From assembly GCA_019915135.1 (NCBI GenBank), contig JAHLMK010000014.1:1240001-1304000 (forward strand): a stretch of DNA of 64,000 nt, written 5' to 3'. Each line of letters begins with the position of its first letter. Positions within the stretch are counted from its first letter, which is position 1. The position numbers and the translations under genes are program-made. This stretch comes from Strobilurus pachycystidiatus (Eukaryota; Basidiomycota; Agaricomycetes; Agaricales; Physalacriaceae). This document shows, one piece after another, positions 3,725 through 35,140 of this stretch. The notes beneath the pieces are model-generated. The model did not search any database, was not told where the DNA came from, and saw only the letters and a program-made list of their open reading frames with translations.

Positions 3725-4997
3725 ATGCTTTCAACTACCCTTCTTCTGCTTGGTCTCGCCGGAATCGGTCTCGTAAACGGACATGGGCACCATGCCCATG
3801 CTCACAAGCGCGCCGCACACCATCATGTTCATAACAAACGACAAGAAGGTTCTGAACTGGCGAAGCTTTTTGATGGGAATGCGCGGTTCTTGGAGAAGAT
3901 CCAGAGCCAGAGCCCGACACTGCTCTCTGACCTCACTGCTAATGGACAAGGTACGGCTTCATCTTTCGAGTATCAACGGCACCACTGACAATCATCCTGT
4001 CGTAGAACCGCCATTCATGTTTCTCGGCTGTGCAGATAGCCGCGTCAGCGAGGGTACCATTTTCGACGCCGAACCAGGGACCCTGTTCACCGAGCGCAAC
4101 ATCGCGAATCAGTTTTCCCAGAATGACGCCAACGCGTAAGTTTTGTCAGTTCTCTGTCTACTGCATATCAGGCTTACGCATGATTAGTCACTCTATAATG
4201 TCTTACGCAGTCGCAGAACTGGGCGTCAAGCATGTCATCGTCATGGGCCATTACGGCTGTGGCGGTGTCGCTGCAGCTATCGCCACCCCACCAGAGGCCC
4301 CGATAGATGCAGCGAATGGCGCCATACAGAACTGGATCGCGCCTATCCGAGCCATATTCCAGTCTTCAACGAGGTACGGCCGGTGTCTTCGATCAAGTAC
4401 TCGACGATACTGATAGAACCATGGCAGGGAGGAAATCGTGAAACTGCGCGAAAGCATTGCGGGCCAGGCCGTTGTTGAAGAGCCCGAGCCGGAAGATCGT
4501 AAGTGGAGATTTGGTTCACGACAATCTTGCTCGTTCTTTTAACCGAGTTTCAAAGCTGGATTCCGCGCGCTCGTTGAAGAGAACGTCAAGGCCAGCGTGA
4601 AGGCCATAGCTACCTCCTCAGTGATCCAGAATGTAAGTGAACCAGCGTTTGAGTGGACCTGATTTAGTCTTGAACTTTTACGTTGCAGCACTTCGCCTCC
4701 TTGTCAGGCGCAGGCTCTGAGCGCAAGCGTGAAGAAGGAGGTGCCGTCGAGAATGTCTTCATACACGGCTTCGTCTACGACATCGCGAACGGCCAGATCC
4801 AGAACCTGGGCATCTCCGTTGGACCCCCTGGCGTGGAGATTCCTGCGATCCCGTTCGGCGCAGTCGGCGAGGCTACGACAGAGTCAGCTAAACCTCTCGA
4901 GAACGCCCAGTCAACGGTCGCACAACCTGATGAGGGTCTCAAGCTGCATTGCGTGAAAGAGTGTCAGATAAAGAAGAGACTGGCGTCAGGCTATTAA
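3725..4997 (+). CDS. secreted beta-class carbonic anhydrase
   Basis: Six exons (3725-3950, 4006-4135, 4188-4373, 4428-4498, 4556-4632, 4689-4997) give a 332-residue protein; all introns are GT-AG and 52-57 nt. The enzyme interconverts CO2 and bicarbonate at a zinc site. The zinc ligands are visible: GCADSR in exon 2 (Cys, with the Asp-Arg pair) and HYGCGG in exon 3 (His and Cys). The first 20 or so residues form a signal peptide (MLSTTLLLLGLAGIGLVNG), followed by a His-rich segment and a KR site that could be processed. This matches the secreted beta-carbonic anhydrases of filamentous fungi, which are about 100 residues longer than the cytosolic forms. The C-terminal tail after the core is low in conserved residues. 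Confidence 0.93.
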
Positions 4998-5135
4998 ATT
5001 GGACGGTACTACCTTTTTTTCAGTCGATACGAGTTTTTTTTTCTTTATCTGGGACATGAGCTTCTGTAGAGTTCAAGAGAGCGGACACTTAATATTTGGG
5101 ATATCTAGTTGGGAGTATTGGGCATAACAAGATAG

Positions 5136-20974: not shown

Positions 20975-21901
20975 ATGCCAGAGAATAAAGAGCTTAGGGC
21001 TGCCTACATCATGATTCTCCATTGGTTCAACTCCCTCAAAGAGGCTGGCATGCTCCACCTTCTGCTCTCTGACATCTGGATCGACTCGACGGGCAAGGAG
21101 GCGGAACGTGCTAGGAGCTCTGACTCAAGTAGCAAGTCTGCCCACGAACTTCCCTTCCCTATCACGTCTTCCTGCACTGCGCAACGCGGACCTCCCAGCG
21201 GCCAAAAACCCTTATATCCACCTTCTCTCAAACGCGCCAAAATTGAGATCCGAGACGCGTCGTTGGACCTCATTGACTTTGAGTTCAACCCTCGGAACAT
21301 CATCCTGCACTTTCAGTCCGAATCTTGTGGCGATCTTTGGTTACAAGTGCATATTTCTTTATATCGGGTGATTTCTGGCCACTCAAATGCTATTCTTTGT
21401 AGATACAGTTTCTCACTCATACTGTAGTACAGATCTACCGCCGTGAAGACTGGTGTGAGAGTGTCTGTAAGACAAAATCTACGGTGAGCAACGACAACAT
21501 CTCCATCATGCATCCGACCGACGCTGATGTTCGAATCCATCTCAGCATCGCGGATTTCGTGTAGGTATGGCTCTTGATTTTGACAAATGGATAGTCGCAT
21601 TCTTGACACTAGATAATGTCTTCACAGTGCGTGTGCGCGCTTCTCTTCTTCCAGCAGTTGACTCAGACTCACGCTTAGCCATATTACGCGAGCACCAGAG
21701 ACGAACTTCCCGCTCAGCATGTTGATGTCTACACTGACTTTGAGCAATGGCTAGAGGGTGCTGTGGACTGGGCCCGGCGGCGTGCTAAAGATGGCACAAA
21801 GCCGCGCTCAGGGTATGCAATCACTGCTGTTAGAGAGGCCCGGGATATCTGGGGTGGTGTAGGAGTCTATACTGCGAACGAACTCTTCTTTCTAGCTGGT
21901 G
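20975..21901 (+). pseudogene. 5' part of a gene split by the Plavaka element
   Basis: Exons start at ATG 20975 (MPENKELRAAYIMILHWFNS); exon 1 ends at 21346 and exon 2 starts at 21433. A last exon from about 21680 encodes PYYASTRDELPAQHVDVYTD and AVDWARRRAKDGTKP, ending VYTANELFFLA just before 21901. Coding stops where the 11.75-kb transposon begins, and a compatible frame resumes at about 33730. Removing the element and one TG copy recreates a normal intron donor, GTGAGT, at this point. The protein is not recognised. The gene may be inactive, or may still splice over an 11.8-kb intron because the donor now reads GTGCAT. Confidence 0.6.
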
Positions 21902-21934
21902 CATCTGGAAACACCCTATAGCATTAAAGTAATT
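21902..21934 (+). repeat. left terminal inverted repeat of the Plavaka element
   Basis: Starts CATCTGGAAACACCC. It pairs with 33624-33656 on the other strand, with three mismatches in the first 28 positions. The following 900 bp (to about 22800) hold no gene, only AT-rich subterminal repeats. Confidence 0.75.
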
Positions 21935-22858
21935 GAAAGAAAAATAAAGTATTTTAAAGTTTGGTAAGCTGCAAAGACAAAAAAGTACTTTAACCGAAGG
22001 TTACCTGAGTAATGGAGTTCAAAGCACTATCAAATACTTTTGACAGCTTTTTAAAGGGTGCTTAAGTCTAATAAAGTAGATGTCTCTGTTAACCTTCTAG
22101 TGAAGCACTTCTATAGCACTTCTATAGCACTTCTGTGATACTTTCGAAATATCTAGAAAGTATATGGGACCTCTCTATAAGCGCCGACGTGGTGCTTAGC
22201 AAGTGTTTTGAAGTCAAGGTTCCTGTTAACCTTCCTGTCAAGTACTTACGGAGCGCTCATTGAGCTTATAGCAAGCAATGTGTCAGCGCTCATCAAGCTT
22301 ATAGTAAGTCACACTCAAGCCTTCAATAAGCACTTCCGAAGACTCCCAAACTCCATGCATGTGAGAACCTTCCTGTAAAGTACATCATGAGCACTCTCAA
22401 AGCCTTCACACAGTACACATCAAGCGCTTGTAAAGTCCCGGAGAGATGATTCAAAACTCACTACTGAAGACGCTTTTCTTTTAAGTCATTGCACAGTTCT
22501 CCCAAAGCCGCTGGTTAGTGATCAAGAATCAGTTGTAAGCACTGTACAAGAGCTATACAAATACATTGAAAGTGCATTGAATACGCTTTGATAGACAGTC
22601 AAAGCTATGGCATATCAACACACATTTCGAGGCTCAAGCAAATTTGTCACACAATTGAAAAAGGATAAATCTGATAATATTGCAGGGGGCTACTTAAAGC
22701 TAACTACTACTATACTACTAGGGCACGAGACTGGTGAGATGGTATGCAGGCAATGCATTAAGGATGCAGATGTAAAAGTAGGAGTGATATAATAAGAACA
22801 ACGAATGTGGGTAGCACAGGGCAGGATGATTAGTGTGAGTATGAGTTGAACAGCCGAT

Positions 22859-24480
22859 CTAGGCAACTGACTCCTCGAGAGCTGCAAAGTCGAGATTGGC
22901 CATAGTATCTGAGACGGAAGTTTCGAGAAGGAAGGTCTTGTTTGTATGCACCCTATAATATAATTGAACACTAGGAGACGGTCATGGAACAACGAGACAT
23001 ACAGCATGGACTTGAAGAGATCAACCTGCAGCTTGAGAATGAATGCAGGGGCTTTCTTCTGGACGTGGTTCAAGCCAGCAAGGTGGTGGAAGTATCGAAC
23101 AGAGTTGTCTTCCTTGAAATCTAAACGACGAATGGTCCCGTCACGCCATTCAGTGAGAGCATGCTCCATCTGTTCGGTAGTCAGATTGGGACAGTGGGCA
23201 AACAGGCAGCAACTTACTGCAGTCATTGAAAGGGCCATGAAGACCGTGGGGAGCGTCTGAAGCTCAATGAGAAGGCGGAACATCTCACTGTTTGCCTTTC
23301 CACGTCCTTCCATGAAGAGGACACGGGGAACAGCTTCGAAAAAGGCTGCTCCAAAAGGCTTCTTCAAATCAAAGGTGCGGTTCTGAGGAACATGTCAGTG
23401 TTGGCAAGAGAGACAGGCGAGAGGACTGACCGCAATGTCCAGGCCGGCGAACTTCCATCCCTCGGATTTGAGGAGCCAGGTGATGACCTCGACAATCTCG
23501 GCTGGTTGCATAGAACCGGGAACTCCGAGAGTGGCGACAAGACGACGGGCCACGGTGATGAGCGCATTGAAAAACGAGAAGCGAGAGTAGAGGACCTGCA
23601 ACACAGGCGATTAGCAGACTCTCGGAGATGAACACACTCGACGTACATATTGGACAACCAGCTCCATCTTGTCCTTGTTCTGGACAAGACGCAACCACGT
23701 TGCCTTATCCTCGGGATCGGCGTCCTTGTGCGTCGCCATCTTCTCGAGGGTTTGGCTGACCTGGCCTGCACGCTCCAACACGCCTGGGTATGGGTTCTCA
23801 GTCGCGATCTCGACAATGAGGGCCTTCTTGCCCTTGGTGCTGAAACGCAACGAGGCGGGAGAAATCATGGTAGACTTGATCTTGCCTCTCTTGACTGGGC
23901 CGTGGCTGTCGTCGTCGGCGTGACGGACGCGCTTGCGTGGCCTCTGAGGCGTGGTGAAGAGGTCGTCCGACGAGCTGATGAGCTATACATAGAAGAGTGT
24001 CAGCAACGGTAGTAAGTATGAACTTGAGCGAACTTACGAGACTGTCCGAGGAGTCGTCGTAGTCGATAGGGTCGCTGGACGCGACCGGGATGTCATCGGC
24101 AACGTCGTGCTCGTCATCCGACGGAGGGAGGGGATCCTCGTCATTCCCGTTGTCGAGGTCGACGGGCTGGTGGTCCGAATGAACGGCCGGAGCAACGTAG
24201 CCAGCCTGGAAGACTGCCTCGTCTGCGTCGTCCTCTTGAAGGGCGGCGTTGCGCTGTCGAACAGCTGCACGGGTATTAGTGCACGTCTCACAGATATAGG
24301 GGAGTGCATACCTTCTTGGCGAGCCGCCTTCACTGCAGCCTGCTGCGTCGCAGAACGGCGGATAGCAGCAGCACTGGGGCCCTTGTCGGCGGCGGACGTA
24401 CGCTGGGTACCATCCTTAGCCGACAACACCTGACGCTGGGTCTCGGTGCTTTTCTTGCCCTGGCGCTTGACTTGGGACAT
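22859..24480 (-). CDS. transposon cargo: DUF6532-like protein
   Basis: A minus-strand gene from ATG 24480 to TAG 22859 in about seven exons. The N-terminal part (MSQVKRQGKKSTETQRQ) is basic. An acidic segment follows (DPLPPSDDEHDVADD), then a nuclear-signal-like stretch (PRKRVRH). The C-terminal 270 residues are a helical domain with YSRFSFFNALITVARRLV and FLKVxL-like repeats, resembling the DUF6532 family of mushroom proteins. The function is unknown. Its position inside the transposon, next to another large minus-strand gene, makes it cargo. The coding sequence looks intact, with consistent short introns. Confidence 0.6.
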
Positions 24481-24819
24481 GATGATAGTTGGGGCGGACG
24501 ACGACGCGGAGGGGCGGGGAGGAGAGAGGAAAGGAAAGGAGGGATGATGGGGAAAGAGGTGAAGACGGCAATCTGAAGACGACCCGGTCTTATATACAGG
24601 CTGGCAGGGTCCCGCCAACCCTGCTGGACTCTCTCACGCACAGACCAAGAAGGCCCGCCTGCCACAATGTTGCCACACCCATGCAACGTCTGTGCCAGTC
24701 CGAGACAGCAGGAGACAGTGATACGATAATTACATTTGAGAAAACATAGGATGAGTACAGGAATTGTATGTTATCAATTGGTAACACAAGATATGATCTT
24801 CGAACAAGAAATTTGTACT

Positions 24820-27187
24820 CTAATAACGGTAGTGTGGAAGAATTGGAGGTCGGTTGAAAACATCGGTGAAACAGTCCATGTACCAGTAAATGACATGGTA
24901 CTCGGAGCGCCCAAGGTCTATCTCATCGATCGTCTCGTGGTTCAACATCTGCGGCAACTTGAACGCCTCCGCCCAACCCTCCTTCGACATCTCCCGATGT
25001 GTTGTATTCCACCCGAGCATAACGCGAAAGAGAGCGTGCATGGTACGTGCCCGCTCGCGAAGGTCCCTGGACGCAAAACCAACATCGTATCCAAGAGTGT
25101 GATCTGGAATGATGCTGCCTCCAAAGTGCGGGATCACTGACAGAATCGCTGCCTCGCGGTCAGCCCGAGTGGAGGCGTCGAGATCATCCCAGTCATTGGC
25201 AGGTAGACTGCCCTCCTCATTGTCGGTGTCGTCTACAGGAGGAGGCTTCAATTTGTACATCCAGGCATCCAGTGTGAGTAGCTCCACGCGGAAAGTGATC
25301 TCGATGAGTTCCCACAGAATCGGGCGGACAACGGTGGGCTGAAGAGGGACGGAAAGGTTCACATTTTGCCCATGCCATTTCGTAGGGCCCGAGACAATGC
25401 TATTCCAGTTGAAGCGGCCCTAGAAAATGCAACAGATAAGTTAGATGGTGTTCAGAATGCTCAACGGGACGACTAACCTCCTTGCGTCCTTTTTCGAGAC
25501 ATTTGGTCAGATTCGCACGCATCTTTTCGCGTCTCTCGGCAGCCTTCGAGTCCGTTCTGGTAGATCCCGAGCCATGTGTATCCATGGTGAGAATTGAATG
25601 CCAGTCTTTCTGGGGGAAAACGTCGAGGTCTGAGCTTGTCAGCCGGTACAGTAGCAGGTCCCACATCTTGACGAGGGCACACAATTGAGCAGCCCGGACA
25701 TCTTCGCGGCCAGCGCTCACAATACCATTCGCCTCCGGAAGGACATAACCGGGGTGGGCGCCAGGACGCGGCTGGAAGGTTGAATGGACGAAGTTTGCTG
25801 CGTGCGCCGTTACAGATGCGGCGGTCCATGTAGAAATGGCGGTGGGCATGAGAGGAGTATCAACGTCGAAGAACTTATTGCGGGCTACCGGTGAAGAGGC
25901 GTGTGTGGACGCCGAGGAGATTGGATCTGAAAAAGGCCATTAGACATGAAAGAGAGCACATGCACATATCGATGGTACCACTTACATGGTTGATGCCGGC
26001 CGCGACTCCTTCTGGTGGTGTTCAACGAACCGCGACTTGAGTGACTAGGCGCAGGCAAAGGAACGAGCGCTGGTGCAGGAACGAGCGCGGGAGCAAGAGT
26101 CTGAGTGGGCTGGGGAGCTGACGAGGGAGGAGCCGGTGCGGGGCGACGTTTGACATATTCGGAGAGAGGAATTCTTCGCACAGATGCAGGTGGGGCGGAA
26201 GAAGGGTTGGTTGAAGTAGACGTCGACACAGAGGAGTATGCGCTGATGGAGGCGAGCATATGCTCGTACATGGCCATGTAGCGGGGAACGATATTGGTGG
26301 TCTGGCCAACCCAAACCTGAGGATGACGAGGATCTGCATCGTCCCACTCTCCTTCAAGTTGCCACTCGGGGTTTGGAGGTGGGTGGGCGGATGGAAGCCA
26401 CTGCGCGCACTTGACGTTGGGTTGACGCTCAACTTTGCGAACAAGCCAGACGGGAACACCGGTCTTGGAAAATTAATTAGTCGTGTACAAATAGTAGTCA
26501 ATAACAACAACGCACCCGAAACAGTTTCTCTGCTACTTCGAAATCCCAGGTAAGAGCACCGAGGCAGCGAATCAGTGTCGGCGGTGCATCCGAATTGAGT
26601 TTGCCCAAGTGCTCGGTGTAGCGCTTGCGCACAAGAGTCAGCCAGATGATTCGAGCGTGGATCTCGAGAGCGAGGCGACAAATGTGGCGGTACATGGAGA
26701 GGGCTTCGGTGAAGGTCGAGATGAGCTCTAAGCGAGGGAGGAAGTATTTGAGTTTATGTCGAAGGGTACACAGGACACGGTCTTTTCGCGAATCTGCATT
26801 GCCTGGTAATGCGAGACTTTGATCGGCGAGCTGCAAGACGGTCTGGACACTAGCGTGGAGTTCCAAGCGTGCACCGTCGCGGAAGCGTCCAATATTGCCA
26901 CCGCTCCCGGCCTCGAAATCAAGCGACTCGGTTGGCGTGGTCCAAAACGCAAGATTCCCGACCATGCGGACGTCCCTTCGGGCGATACAGCAGAGATGGG
27001 CGACGCGGGAATCGAAGTATTGCGGGTGTACAGCGGGATCGTCCTGCCCAAAGTACAGGTTCTTGCGATGGCGTATTTCGCGTGGGCCTAGCAGTATGTC
27101 GGCGGGGATGTAAGACGCATTGGGCGTGGTGACAAAGACGCCGGCGGCCTCGAAGACGCGTCCGAGCAGGCCATCGTAAGACTGCAT
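24820..27187 (-). CDS. transposon cargo: large uncharacterised protein
   Basis: A minus-strand gene of about 700 residues in at least four exons. The ATG at 27187 (MQSYDGLLGRVFEAAGVFV) is the first in the frame; the frame is open further upstream without a Met. Segments include a central YFGQDDPAVHPQYFDSRVAH and CIARRDVRMVGNLAFWTTP, a His/Trp-rich middle (WVGQTTNIVPRYMAMYEHML), and a Pro-rich linker near 25990-26230. The C-terminal half contains RPILWELIEITFRVELLTLD and FRVMLGWNTTHREMSKEGW. The composition suggests a globular protein. It is not recognised. It lies head-to-tail with the DUF6532-like gene and probably travels with the transposon. Confidence 0.55.
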
Positions 27188-27240
27188 GTTGTGCGGGTGT
27201 GTTGGGATATCCGCAATGTATCCGGGGGGAAGTACGCGGG

Positions 27241-27542
27241 CGGTCAAGCACTAGGCTGAGACCAAAAGCAACTGACGCTAGGTCTCGTTGCAGGCACAGG
27301 ACGCTGAGTCTTTGTGCTGAGATGAACGGCGGCGGTGCAAGTCGAGGTAGGTGGGAGGACAAGAGCGCCGGAGTTTGAAATCGCGCAAGGACTTCTCACG
27401 AGATCTAATTTAGATCTCATCGCTCTTGCCCTTGCACCGTCATCGACTCTTCACAAAGACCCAGCGTCCTGTGCCGCGTCCTGTGCCTGCAACGAGACCT
27501 AGCGTCAGTTGCTCCACTCGGTCTCAGCCTAGTGCTTGACCG
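27241..27542. repeat. imperfect inverted repeat upstream of the cargo genes
   Basis: The arms 27241-27330 and 27430-27542 are near reverse complements (GGTCAAGCACTAGGCTGAGA on the left). The right arm has an extra GTCCTGTGC copy. The loop holds a perfect 9+1+9 palindrome, GAGATCTAATTTAGATCTC, at 27400-27418. It may be a duplicated and inverted promoter segment. Confidence 0.7.
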
Positions 27543-29250
27543 TACGCGTTCCGTTGGAGTGGACCGCGATCTTGGTAGGGGCGGGTCTTGGTAGGGGCGG
27601 GGGTATGGGCGGGGCGGCGGAATCTTAGGCGTTCAGAACCAAATGGCTGATGATATCGATTTGCTTATATACTGAGATGACATCCCCCAAGTTCTGGGAT
27701 GGCTGGTCCAGCCTAGCGCTCTCGGTGAGTTGGACTCTTTGCTTCATTCTGTTATCAGGACTCATGCCTCCCAGGATCCGACTGAGATGGTTATAACGCC
27801 AACGCTTGTGCTCTTGGATACGCCTCGACTCACTGGAAACTCCGTGCGCATACCTTGGCGACCGACATTGCGACCGCCGCCGCTGTCGAGATCAAGCAGA
27901 CTTTGCATCCCACTTTGAATCACCCCGGACACCTTGATATCTAATTTGCAGCATCTACTTATCCGTTTACTTTGCCGCGGTGCACAGCAGTGCCTATCAT
28001 GCTCTATCAAACTTTGATGACGACTCTCGTGCTACCGTCGCCCCTCGCGCCCCCCTGCAGCCCACCGACGTCGGGATTGTATCTGGGTCGGGACGGCGGC
28101 ACTTGGCATGTGTAAGCTGGAAACCGGTGGGTGCTACGGGGAGCGTATGTATTCAAGACGGTATCGTCCACGTTCTACGCAAAACGGGGTAGGAAGAACG
28201 CACTTGGTACGCTGTCCGCATTTTAGTCATATTTTGGTATCCTAAAACTCTCTATCCAGACGTCGCCAGCGCCTCAACCACAGTGGCAGCACCTTGATGG
28301 ACACCAATCAGGCAGATTCCCACAGCGCGCGCAAATCGTTCCCACATTGGGCGACCTCTGGTGGTCGATCTCGGTCGGGGCGGGGATATGGGCGGGGCGG
28401 CGGAATGAACTATTCGCACTCGCTTCATTACACACCTTGACTATCCCTTCCAATTACTCTCTATCACCACAATGTTCCTTTGGACTTGACATTCGGCACA
28501 TTGGGTACTGCAGGCTAAACCAACTTGCTCTCTTAACTTACTCGTACAATCACAGTCGAGGTGTCCGCCGTTTGACAACGGCTCTGGTGGCCCCAGTGGT
28601 CACACCTTTCAATGCGCAATCATCTTCTCATCGATAGCTACACGTCTCCTCGGGCGGACTCAGTGACCGCTGCCGTCGTTGAGACCAACACCAGTGACTT
28701 TGGACTCCATCTGGAGGGTCCAAAGGACTCAATATGACAATGACAATATTTCCTGTGCCGTCTGCCTTCCAGACCTCATATATGATGCACTTGTTAGTTC
28801 TATCTACGACTCGCTTGGCGCGGCCTCAATCTTCCACGCATCGCGCCCGCTGGAGGCCGCCAACATCGGGATCAGTGATGGGTCGGGGGGGCGGGATTTC
28901 GGGCGGGGGTTACAAGATGGCGGTAAATATGGGATGCCCAATGGTATAGTAATATACGCTCAAGGTCCTGCGCGAAGCGACGCTGTACATCGGTCTCGGT
29001 ACGTTGTCCAGATTTCGATCTAATTCTGCTGTTCTAAATCCACATACCCAGACGTCGCCAGCACCCAACCGCCAATGGAAATACCTTCGTTGATATCCAC
29101 TACACCCACTGTCATAGCGCGCGCATCCCTTTTTGACGTCGGGCGATGTCTGGAAATCCATCTTGGTCCCGGTATCATAAAAGTTTGTACCTAGACGTCG
29201 CTAGCACCCAACCGACGTAGACACCACCTCAAGGCGTTTACTTAGGCGTA
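27543..29250 (+). repeat. degenerate tandem repeat units
   Basis: Related blocks recur: GGGGCGGGGATATGGGCGGG-like G-rich boxes near 27590, 28370 and 28880, and CAGACGTCGCCAGC-like segments near 28257, 29051 and 29192. There are at least two degenerate units of several hundred bp and a partial third. No intact gene is seen from 27188 to 29907. This may be decayed cargo or structural transposon DNA. Confidence 0.5.
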
Positions 29251-29907
29251 TATACTGGCATACTCATCATTGTAGACCACGTACATGTAATTCTAAGACC
29301 TGTATGACTTAGAAATGTAGCCAAATGTATATGTTCGTGGGCTTGCAGTGCGGAGTTCTAAAAATATGTGTGCACGGACCGGGCTTGATTTGGACAATTC
29401 ACTCTCTCTACCTGCCCGCCCACAGCCCAGCCTGACTCCGTCTTGCGTAGCGTACATGCCCGCCACCCAGCAACACACCCGTCACCGCCAACGCCTCGTT
29501 CAGACCAGTTCTTGCGAGCGCGCCGCCCCATTCAGACTAGTTCTTGTGGTGGCATCTTTTTTGCTCGCATTTTCGGTACTCTGCCTAGTGCCGGTACCTC
29601 TTCCACGTCTTCTTACCCGCGCCTTGAGCGTATACGATCCCCACGACTTCCCTGTGGAGTGAGTGATTTTTACTTGCGATAAAAAAGACAGCGCCGCGCC
29701 GTCTTTTTTCGCTCCTTCCGTGTTTTACTCCTGTGCTGACGTCGTACTCACAGCGTCCCCTCCGTTCCTCTCAACGTTCGCTTGCCTTTCATCGCAGTCT
29801 GGTCCCCAACCGACGTCTCCAGCAATAGGTTAGCCTTTTTTTTTCTTCCCAATAATGTATACTAATCGATGAAACACAGCACTCCGCGCCCGCCTCTTGT
29901 CTCTGTA

Positions 29908-32900
29908 ATGCCGCTTGTCAAATGCGAGCAACCGACCTGCCTGCGCGAGTTTGGCACTTTGCAGGCCATGCGCAGCCATCTCCGCCAGGCCAAGTCGTGC
30001 AAATGGTGGATTTCTTACAGCAAACGACCCGCTAGTACTCTTGCGGCGCAGACGCTGCAGCCAACACTCGCACACGAGGCAAGCTCTTCTCACCTAGATT
30101 CAGCAGATGCCGATGCACCAGGACCATCTCTTTGGGTGGGCGACGATGACATCGATTCTCTCGACGACCCCGCAGATGACGAGCCAACGGAAGAGCGCGA
30201 GCAAGGCGACGGAGACGGAGACGGAGACGGGGATGGAGATGGAGATGACGATGGAGACGTTGACAAGGATGTGGATGTTGGGGAAGATGCCGACGCTGGC
30301 GACGTTGACGAGGATGCCGATGTTGAGGAGGATGATGACGCTGGCGACGTCTTTCGCGAATGGCTCGACAACGCTCAAGCGAACGAGGTCTTCGAAGTCC
30401 TCGACGACTCTTCCCTGGGACAAGCTGGTCCTGGTCCTTCTACTCAGCGCATTCGTCTGAATACTATGCTTGGCGGGCGCGCGCGATATCTGGACGACGA
30501 CGATTCCATTGCAGAGCGAGTATCCGTCCCGGACGCAACAGCTGGAGCTGTCATTCGCATTTCCCAGACTGTCCACCAGCAGTGGGCAGCTCTTTTTGGC
30601 ACGCGCGTCAGTGGCGATGTTCTCATGGATGGCAGCAACACTCCAGATCTAACGGACGGCCAGTGGTACAAGCCCTTCGCTTCCCAATTGGACTGGCAGG
30701 TGGCGCAGTGGATGGTGGAAGAGGGAATTGGGCATAACGCCTTCAATGCACTCTTGAACATTCCAGGGGTATGTATTCTTTTTACCTTGACTATGCCACT
30801 AAGATACTAATGTTATCTACCTCCAGGTCAAGGAAAAGCTCGGACTCTCCTACAAGAACACGCGCGGCCTCCACAAGATTGTTGATTCCATCCCACGTCG
30901 TGCGGGGGACTGGAAAGTGAAGACTCTCACCTTCCCCGACCGCCCCGACGAGAAATTCACCCTGCGTCACCGCGACATCCTGGAGTCCATTCGTTCTCTC
31001 TGGGGCGATCCTGACTTAGCTGAGCACCTCGTATACAAGCCCACCACGCTCTTCAGCGACGACAACCTTGATCGCCGGCTCTTCAATGAAATGTGGACCG
31101 CGAAATGGTGGAAATTCATCCAAGTAACTCCCATTTCTTCATTTCAAGTCCGTTCACTAATGCAGTGTCTAGAAAGAACTCCCCGTTGGCCACACTCTCG
31201 CTCCACTCATCATCTCCACCGACAAAACACAACTCACTCAGTTCTCGGGCTCTCGCCAGGCCTATCCCGTCTATCTCACCTTGGGGAATATACCCAGTCA
31301 CCTTCGTCGCAAACCCTCCCAGCTAGCGTGTATTCTTGTGGCCTATCTCCCCGTCGATAAGATGAGCAGAGGAAGGCTGTCGAAAGCTGCCATGGGATCC
31401 CGGTACCAGCGCCTCTTCCACGCCGCGATGTCGGAGATTTTTGCTCCCCTGAAGGAGGCCGGAGAGAAGGGAGTCGAAATGACCAGCGGTGATGGAGCTG
31501 TTCGTTGCGTTCATCCCGTTCTTGCCAGCTATGTGGCGGATTATCCCGAGCAATGTCTCGTTACCTGTGCAAAGAATGGGACGTGTCCGAAATGCAGGTG
31601 TCGGCAGGAAGCAATGGGCGACAAAGGTCCTGATGCGATGCGAACACCTGGTTGGACTCTTGGTGTCATGTCCGACGCAAAGGCTACCACGGATAGTCCC
31701 ACCGCCTACTTCGAGAAATGCATGGCCGAGAATGTCTCTGGTCACGCCCCAAAGCCGTTCTGGGCTGATCTTCCCCACACAAACATCCATCTTAGCACGA
31801 CTCCAGACGTCCTACATCAGCTGTACCAGGGCGTTCTCCGTCATCTGATTGATTGGTGTCAGACTCTCATGACCGAAGAAGAGTTTGATCGTCGCCTTCG
31901 TTGTCTCCCTCCCGGTCTTGGCCTGCGCCACTTCAAAAATGGTATCAGTGCACTCTCCCAAATCAGCGGCACGGAACGAAAGAATATGGGGAAAATTCTG
32001 CTTGCCTGCTTAGTAGGCTCGAGCATTCCTGAACGTGGTGTCACAGCATGTCGCGCCATCTTGGATTTCATTTACCTGGCCCAATACTCTACCCACGATG
32101 AAGATACGCTCGGCTATATGGAAACTGCTCTTCAGACGTGGCACACAAACAAATCCTACTTCATCATCGTTGGTCTTCGCGAACATTTTAACTTTCCCAA
32201 AATGCACTCCCTTCGACATTACGTCGAGTCCATACGGTTCTTTGGTGCCACCAACAACTTCAACACGGAGATGTTCGAACGCCTTCATATCGACTTTGCC
32301 AAACATGGGTGGCGCGCATCCAACAAGCGCGACGAGTATCCACAGATGACAACATGGGTGATCCGCAAGGAAAATGTTCATGCGTTCAATAAATATACAA
32401 AATGGGTTCAACAGCAGCTCGGTACGTTTGTCCCTCCTAATTGGTTTTGATCATGCACTAATGGGCCGATTTATTGCAGTATCAAACACTTTGGCTGTTC
32501 CCGCTCCGACTACTACGCCCTCAGTGTCCCCTTCAGGACCAACTCCTACATCGTCAACAACATCCTCATTACCCAAAAATTGTGTCCAATTACCATTGCA
32601 TCCAACAATTTCAAACAAGCCTATTGCACGCATTGCGAAGCAGCACAATGTCCACATGTTCCCTTCTCATCTTCTCCTCTACCTCAACACCGTGGGCAAA
32701 GATAAACTTGGGCAACAGGCTCAAGTGTATCCTGCACTTCCATTCCTGGGATTGGATGTCTATTATTCTTTCAAGTTTTCGCGAGAAGGCTTAACAGATG
32801 ATTTCGAGATACGCGATGTTGTGAAGGCATCACCTCTTGATGGCGGACGCTTCGATACAGTCGTCGTTCTTACTGGAGATGAAGCTGAAAGTACTGGACT

Positions 32901-33345
32901 GCCAGGTATGTTCTATCAGTTGTTCTAGGTTCTTTTGCTGATTATCTTGTCAGGAACTCGCATTGGCCGCATTCGAGTAATCTTCAAATTTCCAGCCGAG
33001 CTCGAAATGCATGGTGTGAAAGTTCGGACGCCTGCACATTGGCCACGTCAACCTTTGGCATATGTACAGTGGTATACGAAGCCGCTTCTTACTCCCAAGG
33101 CGTACCGTTCTCACAAAATTCCTTCGTTGTCTAAAGCATATCTACCCGATGGAAAATCCCCAGCATGGTCAATTATATCTCTTAGTAATATTCGTCAGAG
33201 CGCCCACTTAACCCCAGACTTTTCACGGTGTACACCAGATGAGTGGGACATTCCTATCAGTAAATCATCCGTTCTAGATACTTGTTCTCATTTTCTACTT
33301 AATAATTGGCTTAGTGTTTATACTTATCAAAGTATTTATCTCTAG
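29908..33345 (+). CDS. Plavaka transposase
   Basis: Five exons (29908-30768, 30827-31123, 31173-32421, 32480-32905, 32954-33345) sum to 1074 residues with consistent phases. The N-terminus has a C2H2-like finger (MPLVKCEQPTCLREFGTLQ with following His and Cys). A long Asp/Gly/Glu acidic tract follows, then the hallmark WYKPFASQLDWQVAQWMV and SLWGDPDLAEHLVYKP. Catalytic candidates are the Asp in STDKTQLTQFSG, the Asp in TPDVLHQLYQGVL and the Glu in TEMFERLHIDFAKHG. VADYPEQCLVTCAKNGTCPK carries the conserved Cys cluster. This is the CMC/Plavaka family of basidiomycete cut-and-paste transposases. No frameshift or premature stop was found, so the element could be autonomous. Confidence 0.92.
30205..30350 (+). 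repeat. GAYGGA-type minisatellite in transposase exon 1
   Basis: Short G-A-rich repeats (GGAGAC and GATGGA variants) encode the acidic Asp/Gly tract of the transposase. This is in-frame length-variable DNA. Confidence 0.8.
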
Positions 33346-33656
33346 ATTATGAATTGAATTAAAGCTTTTGTCCTAAGTATTGTTGTTCATATGTGCACTT
33401 AAGTAATTCAAAGGTATTCTAAGTAATTACCGCTGGACGAGTACTTTGATACATTTTATAATATGTGACGAACAAACATGAGTTTGAGAGTATTTCATAA
33501 TGTTTTTAAGTTCTTGTTGTTCATTGTACAGGTGTTTGCTCCTATAACACACTTTATAGTGCTTTGACAGATTATAAGTACTTTGACAGCTTTATAACTA
33601 CTGCTTTTAAGTGATGCGCTTATAAATCCTTTGATGCCATAGGGTGTTTCCTGATG
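33346..33656 (+). repeat. right subterminal region and terminal inverted repeat
   Basis: About 310 bp of AT-rich DNA with repeated AAGTAATTC, AGTACTTTGA and CTTTGACAG motifs, ending in the terminal repeat 33624-33656 (…TAGGGTGTTTCCTGATG). It matches the style of the left end. Confidence 0.7.
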
Positions 33657-35140
33657 TGAGTATCTCAGTCCCTCTATGGCTTGACACTGACATGAGAGTC
33701 GAGGTTTATCGCCATTTCTTTCGGAGGCAGAAGTATTTGACTGTCCATCCCGCTTCGCCCGTCTTTGTGAAGCATATTACGCCGACTCGTTCCGAGCTGA
33801 GCATTATATCTGGTCAGCTCTGTTTCTTTTCTCTACTCATAATTGTCTGTGTCTGACGCATGCATGCATCGCACATGATAGGTCACTCCTCAAGCCATGT
33901 CTTCGTGACCGATTCTTTCTGGCTGTTCGAAATCAAGACCGTCTGAAGTTCAAGGATTGGCTTCATGTTCACGCACAAGAGCGTGTCTGGATTTTGAAGC
34001 GTATGCAAGATCTTTTAATGCGGTTCCAGGTAAGCATCTTCTCGCGCAATTGACCAGTGATTGACCAGTGTTGCAGAAGGTTGTTGACGAAAATGAGGAA
34101 ACTCCCCATTGGATCAGGGCGCCAGGCGCCTTCCTCGATGTATTTGAGCCAAGTTTCCTCGAGGATACGCTACTGCGGCGGTCGGACAGTCTTGGACATC
34201 TTATATGTGGGTCTGCAGATCGGTGGCGTGCATCCGGTGGTATTGTCTGGAAGGATAACCCTCTTGAATTATATTTCCAAGAGCGTGGACCAGGCAAGTT
34301 CATTGTTCATCGACCGATTCATTCATGATGATATCTAACATGTATGGTCTGGCGCAGATTTTCTCGCCGAAACCAACACATTTCTGGACTGGAGCACGTA
34401 TACTCCGCTATTTCTGCCCACCGTCAAGCAGGCCTGGACTTCGACGCGACTGTACCGCATCAAGAAATCCGATGTTTGGTCTATCATACCTCCATTTCCA
34501 GATGATTCAGTCCCCTTCAATATTGATCAGTGCAAGGGCTACGCATTTGACTACCTCCCAGCCGATGACGATGAGCGCCATCGCAAGAGCTTCACTTATA
34601 TTGTGAAACATACCAATAACTATGCAGTGGGACCTCTCGACTTCTGCGGCGTCGGTCGGATCATAAACGACAAGTACGCTCGCGCGCACTTCTCTATATT
34701 TCTCTTTCCTGACAAGACTATCTAGAGTCATGATTTGCCGGGGTGATCCACGCTACGATGCGCGCACCCAGCAGCTTCTGGACCAAAATTTCGAGCGACG
34801 AACATATGCAAAACCCGGTGTACGCAAAGGCGCCAACCCGCACTTAAAGAAGAGGAAGCGCCTCATTTCGGAAATGCTTCGTGATGAGAACGACTCGCTC
34901 TCATCTGATTTGCCGTCGTCTTCGTTGGATCCTTCCTCATCAGATCCTTCCTCCCTGTCTTCAGAGCTTTCGAACGCTCCTCCGCTCACCTCTTCCGCCA
35001 GCGCACCCTCTTCCGGTAATGACGTTTCCGAAAAGTCACGACCAAGAAAGCGTCGCAGACGAGTTTCTGCAGACCAAGCCTTAGCTTTGGTTAACACCGA
35101 CGACATGCTCCCTTCGCGACGTCACTCAAGTTCCCATTAA
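33657..35140 (+). pseudogene. 3' part of the gene split by the Plavaka element
   Basis: Coding resumes near 33730 with EVFDCPSRFARLCEAYYADS and continues through short introns with LKPCLRDRFFLAVRNQDRLK and HWIRAPGAFLDVFEP. It then reads SDSLGHLICGSADRW, the segment near 34630 GPLDFCGVGRIINDK, and a basic tail to a TAA at 35140 (SSLSSELSNAPPLTSSASAP and KSRPRKRRRRV). The last exon has a clear nuclear localisation signal. The family is not recognised. Phase and frame fit the 5' part ending at 21901. The first 70 bp after the element are what remains of the interrupted intron. Confidence 0.6.

Follow-up and report, generated by a model that had tools for sequence, protein, structure and literature searches.

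The closest described relatives of the unit reported here are the PlavakaB transposons of the CMCT group, for which the available part of Kojima (2025; PMC12730594) gives CATCA..TGATG termini and 2- or 3-bp target duplications. According to the same part of that paper, TET/JBP genes are common to several transposon superfamilies, Plavaka included, and those of the PE type occur in Plavaka and four other lineages. The accessible sections of PMC8955403 list DUF6532 and Plavaka among enriched domains, and those of papers on Marasmius oreades (PMC8290104, PMC9674265) and Agaricus bisporus (PMC7473861) hold nothing on accessory genes of Plavaka.

Ends and genes of the Plavaka unit

The unit occupies 11,755 bp of the window, the whole 64,000-bp stretch of DNA that was analysed (Table 1). 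Its terminal sequences are CATCTGGAAACACCCTATAG, read from 21902, and CATCAGGAAACACCCTATGG, read inverted from 33656. The right end, CATCAGG, fits the PlavakaB terminus, and the left end, CATCTGG, differs by one letter. A preliminary description had proposed a Plavaka-type unit with inverted ends, a TG duplication on both sides and AT-rich subterminal repeats. The ends and the PF18759 match, which covers the full profile with transposase residues 309-628, bear out the first of these; both TG copies are present; and AAGTACTT-like motifs concentrate at the two ends, with seven in the left 799 bp and three in the right 377 bp, compared with one in the 10,579-bp interior of the unit and four in the remaining 52,245 bp of the window.

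Table 1. Features of the transposon unit, in window positions
Feature	Position	Strand	Details
Transposon unit	21902..33656		inverted ends, TG at either side
Left TG target duplication copy	21900..21901		
Left inverted end, 38-bp arm	21902..21939	+	82% complementary to right arm
DUF6532 protein gene (P1)	22859..24480	-	7 exons, 440 aa; PF20149 E 1.2e-19
P2 gene	24820..27187	-	4 exons, 732 aa; homologues in Plavaka and hAT elements
Plavaka transposase gene	29869..33345	+	5 exons, 1,087 aa; PF18759 E 1.8e-105
Right inverted end, 38-bp arm	33619..33656	-	
Right TG target duplication copy	33657..33658		

The gene models, built from splice signals and homology, contain 13 introns over the three genes, all GT-AG and of 47-59 nt, and no internal stops. 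The intact five-exon transposase announced earlier is thus recovered as an open model, and the two large minus-strand genes, described as a DUF6532-like protein and one of about 700 residues, correspond to the remaining two models. For P2, no Pfam match was found at E<=1, and a Pfam search gave no Tet_JBP match in any of the three proteins. CPKC and HSLRH were spotted by eye in the spliced model and set against the available passage of PMC12730594. The unit reads as a PlavakaB-type Plavaka transposon, probably an autonomous one.

Joined at a single TG, the flanks match C4:2114277-2114642 (71%) and C5:851217-851434 (69%), in both cases as one continuous stretch across the junction. The two sites are uninterrupted paralogues of the interrupted gene and have diverged at the junction itself. 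The TG reconstruction of the insertion holds insofar as the joined flanks span the junction in two paralogues, which are not the orthologous empty site. In the alignment, the junction with one TG reads GTGAGT in the window and GTGTGT and GTATGT in the paralogues; taking these as donor sites, the unit looks as if it sits at an apparent exon-intron boundary. The interrupted gene itself (window 21679-21901 and 33657-34053) is a member of a small gene family, whose copies on C4 and C5 are uninterrupted.

Related units in the genome

All genome counts come from one genome, of 51.8 Mb in 61 contigs. The end motif, allowing up to three mismatches, matches it 49 times (29 + 20), and the reversed pattern, used as a control over the whole genome, seven times (5 + 2). 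Many matches form pairs, and a matching 2-bp flanking repeat accompanies 15 of the 18 readable pairs, where chance would give 1 in 16. These 18 comprise 15 pairs (12 matching) and three added ones (three matching), leaving out single-ended matches and a pair cut by the end of contig C31; the pairs at C7:2184849, C16:383944 and C5:2697690 have no matching repeat.

Units with window-type ends fall into two sorts. One holds the three genes and measures 9.9 to 14.2 kb, its longest member containing a nested element; the other is ~4 kb long. Genome searches returned 72 matches for P2, 57 for DUF6532 by protein and 13 by Pfam model, and 102 for Plavaka domains. If a three-gene locus is one where Plavaka has a divergent DUF6532 gene at up to 14 kb and a divergent P2 gene at up to 20 kb, the same divergent order is found at 13 Plavaka loci and at a 14th, which is interrupted. 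Eight elements, the window's and seven relatives, were compared directly; the order and orientation of all three genes are kept in every one, and the 2-bp duplication is present in six and missing in two. Modelling the three genes in each relative gave 21 spliced models, nine of them with one frameshift step and one of these nine also with a stop. Since each step falls at or near a window intron site, they are probably introns missed by the aligner.

The C5 and C19 units share 98.7% identity across 10,821 bp, end to end, and the C9 and C7 units share 99.8%, in three pieces around a nested element; the members of each pair lie at different sites. Near-identical whole units at different sites indicate that the three genes move together. 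This agrees with the earlier proposal that two non-transposase genes move with the unit, and the search it recommended, for other copies with the same ends and the same two genes, found them within the same genome.

Coding sequences of the C5 and C6 elements give dN/dS of 0.075 for the transposase (dS 0.71, dN 0.053) and 0.070 for DUF6532 (dS 0.74, dN 0.052). Ratios between the window and C9, 0.05 for the transposase and 0.12 for DUF6532, are rough because dS is near 2. DUF6532 of C9 and C7 yields 0.82 from few changes, with a frameshift step in the C9 model. P2 is saturated in many pairs; between C5 and C19 its dN is 0 and its dS 0.023 over 716 codons.

One three-gene sublineage looks recently amplified, with two copies on C37 and others at C5:526302, C16:211223, C20:765532, C26:403610 and C9:338224. 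Scores in the Plavaka and DUF6532 searches are similar among its copies, and in one copy, on C9, the transposase lies ~19 kb from P2.

The ~4-kb relatives, screened in case they held the genes, consist of eight end pairs and one unit nested in the C7 three-gene unit. BLASTN with the window element matches their terminal regions only. Seven of the nine were examined through their three longest ATG frames each, which reach at most 259 aa and include no common frame that was seen. These units, taken as non-autonomous, are probably mobilised in trans. Two of them (L015 and L018) are 99.98% identical at different loci, and a 12.8-kb unit at C26:316964-329724 aligns with the ~4-kb kind. The nested unit, 4.3 kb long at C7:2193886-2198183, has ends of this kind, is flanked by a CC duplication and lies downstream of the DUF6532 gene of the unit that contains it.

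DUF6532 and P2 across transposon lineages

DUF6532 keeps to Plavaka. A Plavaka transposase lies within 12 kb of 21 of the 24 DUF6532 loci, and a hAT match within that distance of none; 20 of the 21 were scored as divergent, the nearest match of the other being a fragment. The transposase-domain tree omits C6:1973535, which was too short, and gives C13:518570 a long branch. In it, a branch with support 1.0 separates the eight three-gene elements and C7:2003883 from two further Plavaka clades, ~40% identical to the window transposase. DUF6532 adjoins four of the six members of one, clade A (not C10:1565040 or C20:575986), and all three of the other, and accordingly accompanies three Plavaka clades in total; no P2 match was found beside the nine members of these two. 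Counting against the association, 37 of 62 Plavaka matches, many of them weak or partial, have no DUF6532 match within 14 kb, the two clade A members included. A clade A unit of 7,616 bp at C9:470871-478486 has CATCAGGAAAA ends; its C20 copy is flanked by AA on both sides, and its C9 copy has no matching pair. The preliminary description had counted against itself other genomes with the transposase and its ends but without the extra genes. This similar-ended Plavaka unit, from the same genome and with no P2 match, is partly such a case. The DUF6532 tree agrees with that of the transposase, and both split C37 and C2 from the other elements (0.996 each). The closest named relatives of the DUF6532 protein are four proteins from Hymenopellis radicata, 45-51% identical, so the gene is not confined to this genome.

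P2 is distributed otherwise. Among Plavaka elements it was seen only with the window's clade, and 14 of the 16 Plavaka-type P2 loci have Plavaka less than 5 kb off, in every case divergent and 2.0-4.2 kb away. A second group of 32 loci (from 36 matches, four merged as fragments) is of hAT type: a hAT transposase match lies within 5 kb of 28, again always divergent, at 1.9-3.3 kb. Crossed pairings occur at one of the 32 hAT-type and none of the 16 Plavaka-type loci, the random expectation being ~1%. A hAT element of 7,776 bp with TIRs TAGAGATC..., 99.9% identical between C10 (L036) and C12 (L037), holds both P2 and the hAT transposase inside (PF05699 match at C10:163644-163865); the 8-bp duplication GGAATGAG is present at the C10 copy, and the C12 copy has no match. 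Full-length P2 of the window and of hAT have 206 of 692 aligned residues in common, and seven P2 sequences have 108 invariant columns of 812. The first P2 intron follows the same AE(K/N/S)LxR-like motif in the Plavaka and hAT groups, with the hAT splice sites placed by eye.

The spacer between P2 and the transposase measures 2,681 bp in the window and 1,086-1,725 bp in the seven relatives. In the window it holds an imperfect palindrome of 316 bp (27234-27549) and diverged direct repeats ~790-800 bp apart (27570-29230; families D2, D4 and D5). Palindromes of ~510 bp are present in all three hAT spacers (the C10 copy L036, at about 4573-5084; L034; L035) and of ~90 bp in C37 and C2; none was found in the spacers of C9, C7, C5, C19 and C6. 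The palindrome may be a common regulatory site; a control stretch from the window's left end also yields weak palindromes.

The history of P2 departs from that of its neighbours. In its tree C37 joins C5 and C6 (0.999), in conflict with the other two trees, and its protein identity has fallen to 41-62% between sublineages of the eight elements. When C5 is aligned with C6, the left end and DUF6532 show 72-94% identity, P2 with its spacers 42-71%, and the greater part of the transposase 75-97%; synonymous differences amount to 0.78 for P2 vs 0.46-0.47 for its neighbours. This pattern is typical of a module that has been exchanged, or of conversion that has homogenised its neighbours. P2 evolves fast, follows its own phylogeny and also belongs to the standing gene content of hAT elements.

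A protein-database search that requires shared 5-residue words returned nothing for P2 at E<=0.001 among 7,991 and 1,286 scored candidates. AlphaFold2 models have a mean pLDDT of 58.9 for the N-terminal exon of P2, which is helical where confident, and of 51.2 for a Hymenopellis DUF6532 protein, too low in both cases to be of help. The best E values of profiles against solved structures were 0.039 and 0.44, so that neither protein yielded a structural clue.

Proposed roles of the accessory genes and comparison with known systems

The explanation considered likely, on the evidence of gene distribution and trees, is that DUF6532 is a Plavaka-specific transposition partner, and that P2 is an exchangeable accessory gene common to superfamilies and probably directed at the host. 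DUF6532 was found with Plavaka alone, and since its tree also matches that of the transposase, a part in transposition is its most likely role. P2 is common to two unrelated transposases with different ends and with 8-bp vs 2-bp duplications, and an action on the host or on a common step, and not on a single type of end, is therefore most likely. The Plavaka transposase would recognise the CATCWGGAAAC ends, and would move the whole unit in a cut-and-paste manner that duplicates 2 bp of the target, the chemistry and present activity being presumed. The DUF6532 protein may serve as an end-binding protein, a complex-assembly protein or a regulator, and P2 may act on the host, for instance by countering silencing, or on a step that the two transposases share.

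That both genes are host genes passively caught between the ends is improbable. Neither DUF6532 nor P2 has a known transposition role, P2 lacks a Pfam match, and it is absent from the other Plavaka clades, all of which would suit such cargo. However, the gene set does not vary, the same three being present in eight of eight elements despite the divergence of P2, and purifying selection on DUF6532 equals that on the transposase in C5 vs C6. Most DUF6532 loci (21/24) adjoin Plavaka, and a clear host locus of either gene was not seen, leaving aside the loci without a transposase match (3/24 for DUF6532, 4/32 and 2/16 for P2). Passive cargo was dropped as the main reading on the fixed gene set and purifying selection. 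Of the "cargo" in the preliminary description, what survives is that two extra genes travel with the unit; they were not picked up by one element, as their order is fixed in all eight and DUF6532 accompanies two other clades.

It is likewise unlikely that Plavaka and hAT took up P2 separately from one host gene family, without its ever passing between transposons. The wide distance between the P2 groups and the fidelity of each to its own superfamily within this genome are consistent with separate uptake; the same divergent placement in Plavaka and hAT elements argues against it, as does the failure to recognise a host copy among 48 P2 loci, six of which lie more than 5 kb from any transposase match. 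The idea that P2 is a highly diverged PE-type TET/JBP dioxygenase, a gene that according to the available part of PMC12730594 has a comparable position in comparable elements and likewise crosses superfamilies, is very improbable. The missing Pfam match at E<=1 and the helical N-terminal model, where confident, speak against it, and each of the 13 Tet_JBP matches in the genome falls short of the cut-off and lies elsewhere. An HxD motif is expected of TET/JBP dioxygenases, and no invariant HxD was seen among the 108 invariant columns of the seven P2 sequences. The dioxygenase identity finds no support in the Pfam result, the invariant columns or the Tet_JBP matches.

A transposition partner in DUF6532 and a shared accessory gene in P2 would have wider consequences. 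DUF6532, a domain of unknown function, is offered a role as a transposon component, and where fungal annotations list DUF6532 genes, these may point to transposons and not to the biology of the host. The P2 family would be standing equipment of two unrelated transposon superfamilies. What fungal transposons need besides a transposase becomes directly testable, with one gene added or left out.

Starship giant transposons also carry genes beyond the one for movement, as far as the accounts available for them go. They move by a tyrosine recombinase and carry many varying host genes, whereas the window unit and its relatives hold a fixed set of three in about 10-12 kb. CACTA/EnSpm elements resemble the unit in having a transposase of a related group and a second element-borne protein beside it. 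Their TnpA comes from the same transcription unit as the transposase; DUF6532, in contrast, is a separate gene, divergently placed. TET/JBP-carrying fungal transposons, reportedly treated by Iyer in 2014, are alike in an accessory gene common to unrelated superfamilies and presumed to counter silencing; they differ in that P2 bears no sign of a TET/JBP dioxygenase. PlavakaB is alike in its termini, 2-bp duplication and Plavaka transposase domain, but the extra gene named for it in the available part of PMC12730594 is TET/JBP, where the present unit has DUF6532 and P2. These two genes may be present, unremarked, among the TET-negative Plavaka sequences of that paper. Given the TET/JBP precedent in the available text of PMC12730594, the unit with its accessory genes is a further form of a kind already known. 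There is about an even chance that P2 founds a transposon-borne family of Plavaka and hAT, a cassette swapped among Plavaka elements and the second shared counter-defence gene after TET/JBP, with DUF6532 as the Plavaka-specific partner.
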